Source: an uncultured Prochlorococcus sp.
GTDB taxonomy: Bacteria > Cyanobacteriota > Cyanobacteriia > PCC-6307 > Cyanobiaceae
Reading direction: 5' to 3'
Assembly: GCA_902564535.1 (NCBI GenBank)
Contig: CACFBG010000001.1
Span: 62,001-126,000, forward strand
Length of the DNA: 64,000 nucleotides
Shown in pieces: positions 27,269 to 29,122 of this stretch. Both the position numbers and the translations under genes were made by a program. The notes beneath the pieces were generated by a model, which made no database searches, was not told where the DNA came from, and saw only the letters and a program-made list of their open reading frames with translations. The first letter of the stretch is position 1. Every line of letters starts with the position of its first letter.

Positions 27269-27619
27269 TCAATATCTTGGAACTTTTGAATCGATATTTA
27301 CGCTCCAAGCTTCAATACCACCTTCAAGATTCCAAATCTCTCCTTCCCAAGAGTTTTCTATCATCCAAACACTAAAGTTCCAACTCCTTACTCCAGCATG
27401 ACAAAAAACTACTATTGGTTGATCCAAAGGAAGGTATTGAGATAAATCATGAATCCAATCCGATGACTTACTTAAAGGCAAATGAATTGATACATAAGGG
27501 AAAGGCGCAACTTCCAATTCTCTATCTTCTCTAACATCAACCAAAATAGGATTTTTTCTATCACCTTGCAGCCATTCATTTAATTCAAAGACTGACAAAT
27601 TCCTAGGAACTCTTATCAT
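27269..27619 (-). CDS. Rhodanese-like sulfurtransferase domain protein
   Basis: A single rhodanese domain of 116 residues. It begins FELNEWLQGDRKNPILVDVRED, has LPLSKSSDWI, and carries the active-site loop VVFCHAGVRSWNFSVWM with the catalytic Cys of the CxxxxR type. The end, WNLEGGIEAW, is also typical. Such proteins transfer sulfane sulfur; the partner is unknown. The upstream spacer to gltA contains a perfect 18-bp hairpin beginning 34 bases before the start codon. Confidence 0.93.
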   Translation of the reverse strand: MIRVPRNLSVFELNEWLQGDRKNPILVDVREDRELEVAPFPYVSIHLPLSKSSDWIHDLSQYLPLDQPIVVFCHAGVRSWNFSVWMIENSWEGEIWNLEGGIEAWSVNIDSKVPRY

Positions 27620-27652
27620 AATTCTTTCTTTAATTTGAATAATTATCTTATA

Positions 27653-27692
27653 AGATTATCTAAGATTTAGCAATCTAAATCTTAGATAATCT
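27653..27692. repeat. Perfect 18-bp inverted repeat with CAAT loop
   Basis: The arms 27653-27670 and 27675-27692 are exact reverse complements and enclose only CAAT. Neither side is followed by a run of T, and it lies upstream of both neighbouring genes, so it is not a simple terminator. It could be an operator, an mRNA-leader structure or a relic of a small repeat element. Confidence 0.8.
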
Positions 27693-27748
27693 GAATTTAG
27701 TATGTTGATGTTTGTATCATTAATAAAAGATGTTTGTAAATGATTTGT

Positions 27749-27767
27749 AATTTAATTGAATTAAATT
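27749..27767. promoter_or_regulatory. AT-rich palindrome upstream of gltA
   Basis: AATTTAATT and AATTAAATT are perfect reverse complements flanking a single G. The symmetry suits a dimeric regulator, but in such AT-rich DNA chance palindromes are common. Confidence 0.3.
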
Positions 27768-27955
27768 TTTATCAGGGGAATTTGTGGCTACATCCATCCA
27801 ATTCTCTAAGCATTGAGATTCTTACCTTAATATAAAATCAGAGTAATTATTCACTCCAATGTTTTCTAAAGTAGAATCTCATTGCCTAATCACAAATTAA
27901 GCCACGTTGAGATTTAGCTTTTGAGAAGTTTTGAAGAAGGAATCCCTATTAAGAA

Positions 27956-29122
27956 ATGCAGACCAAGCCTATTGAAATGACTCTAAGACCAGGGCTAGAA
28001 GGCGTTCCTGTCACTCAGTCCTCAATATGTGACATAGATGGAGCCAAAGGAAATCTCTCATATCGTGGATATCCCATTGGTGACTTAACTGCACAAAGTA
28101 GCTTTCTAGAAATCACTTACTTACTGATTTGGGGAGAATTACCTAGTCCCCAACAATTGAGAGACTTTGAAGGGGAAGTGCAAATGCACCGTCGAATGAG
28201 CTTTCGCGTAAGAGACATGATGAAATGCTTCCCTGCTACAGGTCATCCAATGGATGCTTTGCAAGCTAGTGCTGCCTCCCTTGGACTATTTTATTCCAGA
28301 AGAGCAATTGATAAACCTGAATATATATATGATGCAGTAGTTAGGCTAATCGCCAAGATCCCTACAATGGTTGCGGCTTTTCAGCTAATTAGAAAAGGTC
28401 AAGACCCCATCCAACCAAGAGATGATCTTGCTTATTCAGCAAATTTTTTATATATGCTTACAGAAAGGGAACCAGACCCTTTAGCGGCAAGAATCCTAGA
28501 TAGATGTCTCATACTGCATGCAGAACATAGCCTTAATGCAAGTACTTTTAGTGCAAGAGTAACTGCAAGCACTCTCACTGATCCATATGCAGTAATTGCA
28601 TCAGCAGTAGGTACCCTTGCTGGGCCTTTGCACGGAGGTGCAAACGAAGATGTTTTAGCCATGCTTGAAGAAATTGGTGTTCCTGAAAAAGCGGGACAAT
28701 ATCTTGACGAAGCAATAACTAATAAACGCAAAATCATGGGATTTGGTCATCGTGAATACAGAGTGAAAGATCCACGTGCCTCAATTCTGCAAAGTCTTGC
28801 TGAGGAGCTATTTGCAAGATTTGGCAAAGACGAGATGTATGACGTAGCTCAAGCAGTTGAACTAGAAGCTTCAAAAAGACTTGGTGCTAAAGGGATCTAT
28901 CCAAATGTTGATTTTTATTCTGGACTCGTATATAGAAAGCTTGGGATCCCACGAGATCTTTTTACTCCGGTATTTGCTATCTCAAGAGTTGCTGGATGGC
29001 TTGCTCATTGGAGAGAGCAACTAGGTGCAAATAGAATTTTTAGACCCTCGCAAATCTATACAGGTATGAAAACTCGCAAATGGATACCTCCTGAGGAGCG
29101 CAATTCCTCCTCAGTTGACTAA
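27956..29122 (+). CDS. gltA: Citrate synthase
   Basis: GltA condenses oxaloacetate and acetyl-CoA, feeding the route to 2-oxoglutarate for nitrogen assimilation. The 388 residues have RPGLEGVPVTQSSICDIDG, LSYRGYPIGDL, LHAEHSLNASTF with the first catalytic His, AGPLHGGANEDVLAML, and KIMGFGHREYRVKDPRA with the second His. NVDFYSGLVYRKLGIP supplies the catalytic Asp. ATG 27956 is preceded by GAAGGAAT, a fair ribosome-binding site. ndhA follows 24 bases later. Confidence 0.98.
   Translation: MQTKPIEMTLRPGLEGVPVTQSSICDIDGAKGNLSYRGYPIGDLTAQSSFLEITYLLIWGELPSPQQLRDFEGEVQMHRRMSFRVRDMMKCFPATGHPMDALQASAASLGLFYSRRAIDKPEYIYDAVVRLIAKIPTMVAAFQLIRKGQDPIQPRDDLAYSANFLYMLTEREPDPLAARILDRCLILHAEHSLNASTFSARVTASTLTDPYAVIASAVGTLAGPLHGGANEDVLAMLEEIGVPEKAGQYLDEAITNKRKIMGFGHREYRVKDPRASILQSLAEELFARFGKDEMYDVAQAVELEASKRLGAKGIYPNVDFYSGLVYRKLGIPRDLFTPVFAISRVAGWLAHWREQLGANRIFRPSQIYTGMKTRKWIPPEERNSSSVD

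Follow-up and report, generated by a model that had tools for sequence, protein, structure and literature searches.

In Escherichia coli, template switching is an established mechanism that turns imperfect inverted repeats into perfect ones (PMC7202029). Single template-switch events have also been proposed to create RNA stems (PMC8794818), and the prokaryotic excess of short inverted repeats has been attributed to template switching (PMC4060949).

We analyzed a hairpin in a 64,000-nucleotide stretch of the genome of an uncultured Prochlorococcus sp. (the window, in which all positions below are given) and found that it resembles each of these systems in part. Like the products of the quasipalindrome-associated mutations of E. 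coli, it consists of perfectly inverted repeats that a short spacer separates; however, the E. coli events were selected and directly seen (PMC7202029), whereas here we have the product alone, without its ancestor. It shares with the proposed RNA hairpins a long perfect stem that would come from one event, but those, which are in microRNA and rRNA genes, were demonstrated by reconstructing ancestral sequences (PMC8794818), and ours is known only from the product. Close inverted repeats are more common than chance in the prokaryotic survey, as they are in the window's genome, although the surveyed repeats are 6-9 bp and in coding sequence (PMC4060949) and the hairpin of the window is 18 bp and intergenic. 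A literature search covering titles and abstract openings, with coverage of print that may be incomplete, found no report on this hairpin.

Our best reading, held with moderate confidence, is that the hairpin is a young, lineage-specific inverted repeat that arose, or became perfect, by template switching and for which no function is demonstrated.

Structure and location of the hairpin

The hairpin is real, non-random, and present in a single copy in the draft genome. It occupies positions 27653-27692, with Watson-Crick pairs at 18 of the 18 positions of the stem and a loop of 4 (Table 1), exactly where the original prediction had placed a perfect 18-bp stem with a four-base loop. Pairing stops abruptly, and the flanks are unpaired from the first base outward (A against G). 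The hairpin lies upstream of both neighboring genes, 33 bp from the start of the rhodanese-domain gene and 263 bp from that of gltA; this divergent placement had also been predicted, and Pfam domains confirmed both neighbors. The organism is a relative of Prochlorococcus and Synechococcus: among named genomes, those two names head the matches of its rhodanese protein.

Table 1. Coordinates of the hairpin, its parts, and the features around it (positions in the window).
Feature	Position	Strand	Description
Left arm	27653-27670	+	AGATTATCTAAGATTTAG
Loop	27671-27674	+	CAAT
Right arm	27675-27692	+	CTAAATCTTAGATAATCT, reverse complement of the left arm at all 18 positions
Weak promoter-like pair	27645-27673	-	TTGCTA-17-TAAGAT, picked out by eye; matches the consensus at 8 of 12 bases
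Rhodanese-domain gene	27269-27619	-	116 aa; PF00581, E 8.4e-10
gltA, citrate synthase	27956-29122	+	388 aa; PF00285, E 8.5e-137
AT-rich spacer	27620-27955		336 bp, 26% GC; probable scar of a lost DUF3352 gene

The stem is far longer than expected by chance. It is the strongest perfect hairpin of the 64-kb window (loops of 3-20), where the runner-up had 11 bp, and 20 sequences drawn from a first-order Markov model of the window did not exceed 11 bp either. The spacer itself (336 bp, 26% GC) was simulated 4000 times at first order; 0.1% of the simulations contained a stem of 13 bp and none contained one of 14 bp, in agreement with the original judgment that such a stem is very unlikely by chance. 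The predicted RNA is stable on either strand, with folding energies of -20.8 and -21.6 kcal/mol. The fold of the whole spacer is 5.8 standard deviations below that of its own shuffles, and that of the spacer minus the hairpin is ordinary (z of -0.93). A structured gltA leader was also considered and was rejected on the basis of this last value.

Judging by the arrangement of the same genes in relatives, a DUF3352 gene was probably lost here and left the spacer as its scar. We retrieved 20 relatives' loci with both the rhodanese gene and gltA, and in 13 of them the two genes are separated by an ORF of 531-553 aa that is oriented towards gltA, at a distance of 69-86 bp from the start of the rhodanese gene; we classed these ORFs as DUF3352-type on the strength of the one of the 13 that was tested against Pfam. 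The gene is missing from six loci, with 44-612 bp left between the neighbors, and the remaining locus (L300) has a long spacer without a forward ORF of at least 90 aa. The 336-bp spacer of the window contains no DUF3352-type gene, and a protein of this type (from G007) had no match in the window's genome, in a search of a 74.7% complete draft run without a positive control. Because relatives have a DUF3352-type gene between these neighbors and the gene is missing here, the hairpin probably lies in a deletion scar, at a position that corresponds roughly to the former divergent promoter region.

Across the relatives, the DUF3352-type gene appears to have been lost repeatedly between the rhodanese gene and gltA (L298-L317, L034, L037). 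Separately, conservation is much lower in the rhodanese protein than in citrate synthase: identities to G054 were 54% and 90%, G054 being the closest of the 200 other genomes searched when these are ranked by citrate synthase.

Comparison with relatives and possible regulatory roles

The hairpin was not found at the corresponding position in the sampled relatives. The window's genome is a draft in 57 contigs and is the sole member of its genus in the comparison set. A family search with 736 bp around the hairpin matched 49 of 400 genomes, its own included (48 of the 399 others). No homologous spacer appeared among the matches listed from other genomes, all of which were in the rhodanese gene except that from G335, a single AT-rich match of 58 bases. 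The spacer cannot be aligned to the spacers of relatives. Upstream of gltA (up to 500 bp), none of 38 relatives' loci, a set in which at least two genomes are counted twice, had a perfect stem of at least 16 bp; the longest were 15, 13, and 12 bp and differed from the hairpin in sequence. In the 350 bp upstream of the orthologous rhodanese gene, a perfect stem of at least 9 bp was present in one of 46 loci (G051), in a search that diverged half-sites would escape and in which one locus had 88 bp, one had 342 bp, and several genomes occurred twice. The spacer of the nearest relative, G054 (less than 200 bp), has no such stem. Absence from close relatives was half of what the original prediction had set against its own readings, and that half holds for the relatives that were sampled.

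The G051 stem is itself a 17-bp perfect hairpin (L298, 141-180 from the rhodanese start), unrelated in sequence and early in the DUF3352-type coding sequence.

The pattern across relatives bears on whether the hairpin is a palindrome that regulates the rhodanese gene in cis, either as an operator bound by a dimer or as a DNA structure over the promoter. We consider this unlikely. The repeat does end close to the rhodanese start codon, and the weak promoter-like pair would span the hairpin and, if real, would put it over the rhodanese promoter; however, the pair falls below the limit of the promoter scan and is not included in its list. No NtcA or Fur motif is present in the spacer. A regulon would predict a second copy elsewhere, and none was found in the draft. 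In 45 of the 46 loci no such palindrome was found ahead of the rhodanese gene, and the exception has another sequence. The earlier suggestion of an operator or a rhodanese leader keeps some probability, but the palindrome was not found in the sampled relatives and the spacer has no NtcA or Fur motif. A regulatory effect of the hairpin is possible, and selection for such an effect was not seen in this analysis.

Long perfect hairpins in the genome and its relatives

The hairpin belongs to a larger set of long perfect hairpins of unrelated sequence. In the window's genome (426.6 kb, loops of 3-12) there were ten perfect hairpins of at least 16 bp, seven of them of at least 18 bp, with the one at 27653-27692 included in both counts; the ten ranged from 16 to 25 bp, and all had different sequences. 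When this DNA was shuffled block-wise six times under a Markov model, the maximum was 14 bp (loops of 3-30), and one shuffle for each of six genomes gave a maximum of 15 bp. Five relatives (1199 kb) had six perfect hairpins of at least 18 bp, and the excess in the window's genome over these relatives was borderline (p = 0.051), a point that we counted against template switching.

Many hairpins of the set follow stop codons. Using ORFs called by a simple longest-ORF rule and left uncurated, we found a stop codon within 60 nt before 10 of the 18 perfect hairpins of at least 16 bp in the six genomes; one of these 10 overlaps the end of another ORF. In the window's genome five of its ten hairpins closely trail a stop codon, and the hairpin at 27653-27692 is not among them; it is one of two of the 18 (with C3:53036) that are between divergent ORFs. 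Relatives also have hairpins in coding sequence (19 bp in G010 and 17 bp in G051). The placement next to stop codons suggests that many hairpins of the set were selected as 3'-end structures, and we counted it against template switching as well.

The hairpin at 27653-27692 might be a stem-loop in a transcript, either at the 3' end of (or attenuating) an unannotated or antisense RNA of the spacer or in the leader of the rhodanese mRNA. We regard this as doubtful, to about the same degree as the regulatory palindrome. The strong fold on either strand and the hairpins elsewhere that trail stop codons argue for it. Intrinsic terminators likewise share with the hairpin a stem-loop and a short loop, and with other long hairpins of the genome a position behind stop codons; they differ from it in that the hairpin has no match in the terminator scan, lacks a T-run, and is upstream of both neighbors. 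The scan of 27500-28100 found no terminator-like sites on either strand, in line with the original remark that neither side has a T-run. Further, both neighbors are transcribed away from the hairpin, and among the called ORFs that face it the nearest stop codons are at distances of 1476 and 5992 nt, rather than close by as for an intrinsic terminator. No Rfam model reached its gathering score in the spacer, where the top sub-threshold matches were eukaryotic microRNA models; across the whole window, a tRNA elsewhere was the sole match at that score (Rfam 15). The rest of the spacer is not unusual in its fold either. A terminator of an unannotated RNA, as first suggested, has the hairpins behind stop codons elsewhere in its favor and no terminator match at the site itself.

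Several other hairpins of the window's genome are longer or differently placed. One has 25 bp and a loop of 3 (L083 9911-9963; C1:29911-29963), and one has 24 bp and a loop of 3 and starts where an ORF of 633 aa has its stop codon (L091 17195-17245; C2:17195-17245). A perfect stem of 18 bp that closes a loop of 19 bases (L084 7876-7930; C1:47876-47930) is in a leader-like position between two ORFs, which we take to encode ribosomal proteins L1 and L10; no Rfam match between these ORFs reached the gathering score, nor did any in the seven stretches with eight of the nine other perfect hairpins of at least 16 bp of the genome.

Artifacts and mobile elements

An amplification or assembly artifact of a draft, possibly single-cell, genome is very improbable. 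The draft is fragmented and incomplete, as noted above, but both flanks of the hairpin continue into the expected neighbors on a 208-kb contig, and long perfect hairpins are also present in complete one-contig relatives (G003, G010, and G051).

Least probable of all, and in our judgment close to excluded, is the remnant of a mobile or miniature repeat that the original prediction had listed: a short perfect inverted repeat in a spacer would suit it, but in place of the several copies expected of a miniature inverted-repeat element, a DNA search of the 74.7% complete draft returned only the hairpin, as itself and as its reverse complement, sites resembling an arm with three mismatches or fewer were less numerous (61) than for a reversed-pattern control (81), and no target-site duplication was seen at the ends of the hairpin. 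The earlier advice to search the genome for copies of the arm thus yielded no other copy in the draft. A viral origin was rejected too; ten viral stretches match 17 bases of an arm, and the palindrome continues in none of the ten.

Proposed origin of the hairpin by template switching

Template switching appears to be the most likely origin of the hairpin, a view that we hold with about as much confidence as doubt. During replication, the polymerase would briefly copy the nascent or the opposite strand; one arm would become the exact complement of the other, and the repeat would be formed, or perfected, in one step. The setting would be a little-constrained AT-rich spacer, left by the probable loss of the DUF3352 gene. 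We base this reading on the perfect stem beyond chance, the abrupt end of pairing, the single copy, the absence from sampled relatives, the lack of the DUF3352 gene that most of the relatives' loci have, and the genome-wide excess of perfect hairpins with differing sequences. The perfect arms (18 of 18) and short loop (4) are as expected of a template switch. This mutational origin, which was not among the options first proposed, fits best. We infer the mutational mechanism, the recency of the event, and the absence of a selected function.

We compared perfect stems with near-perfect ones. Among stems of 18 positions in the six genomes, 13 were perfect, 7 had one non-pair, and 18 had two; the corresponding numbers in the window's genome were 7, 1, and 8, and one shuffle per genome gave none below three non-pairs. 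The dip at one non-pair weakly suggests birth in one step; it is weak evidence because the class with two non-pairs includes shorter stems. That stems with two non-pairs (18) outnumber perfect ones (13) we counted against template switching.

Four hairpins in coding sequence could be aligned with relatives, and in all four one arm was better conserved than the other. For the 19-bp hairpin of G010, compared with 11 congeners in which its coding frame is open, mean arm identities were 0.84 versus 0.55, with 0.68 and 0.67 in the flanks and no gap. The window's genome contributed three hairpins of 13 bp, for which 19, 19, and 13 relatives entered the alignments, out of 53, 42, and 13 other genomes with a match. 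Their arm identities were 0.81 and 0.64 with a 3-base gap (flanks 0.74 and 0.80), 0.79 and 0.64 (flanks 0.71 and 0.69), and 0.84 and 0.71 (flanks 0.62 and 0.53, both arms being above the flanks). However, not all of the less conserved arms fell below their flanks, nearly every base in them was found in some relative, and for one of them the same arm was present in a relative (L283). The G010 hairpin, the best example in a relative, is only suggestive of template switching.

Shorter hairpins elsewhere may have a different history. In two other genera (12 genomes, 60 kb each), hairpins of 13-15 bp were present in six genomes; these are consistent with point changes, and we counted them against template switching. 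A 22-bp hairpin of G003 was also compared within its genus, and one of two other genomes matched, beyond the hairpin.

Taken alone, the hairpin is of little consequence; it is ordinary in kind and mildly interesting as a member of the set. It is probably a replication product in a relaxed spacer, and most likely a copying slip rather than an established genetic switch. A hairpin in a promoter region, however striking and perfect, need not be an operator. As one of a countable set, it could be used in testing the birth of stem-loops by template switching in marine cyanobacteria. More speculatively, and with no great expectation that it is right, we suggest that this genome, and to a lesser extent its small-genome relatives, might continually generate, through template switching, long perfect hairpins that are unrelated in sequence, that many would be lost and those behind stop codons kept as transcript ends, and that the one at 27653-27692 would be a newborn between divergent genes. 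If so, a mutational bias would be the direct source of 3'-end structures in this streamlined cyanobacterium of the sea.

Two further repeats are present in the same spacer. A direct repeat, GATGTTTGTA, adjoins the hairpin at 27707-27738 as two copies 22 bp apart, and an inverted repeat of 16 nt with 88% complementarity (27807-27822 and 27873-27888) is located around the region upstream of gltA.
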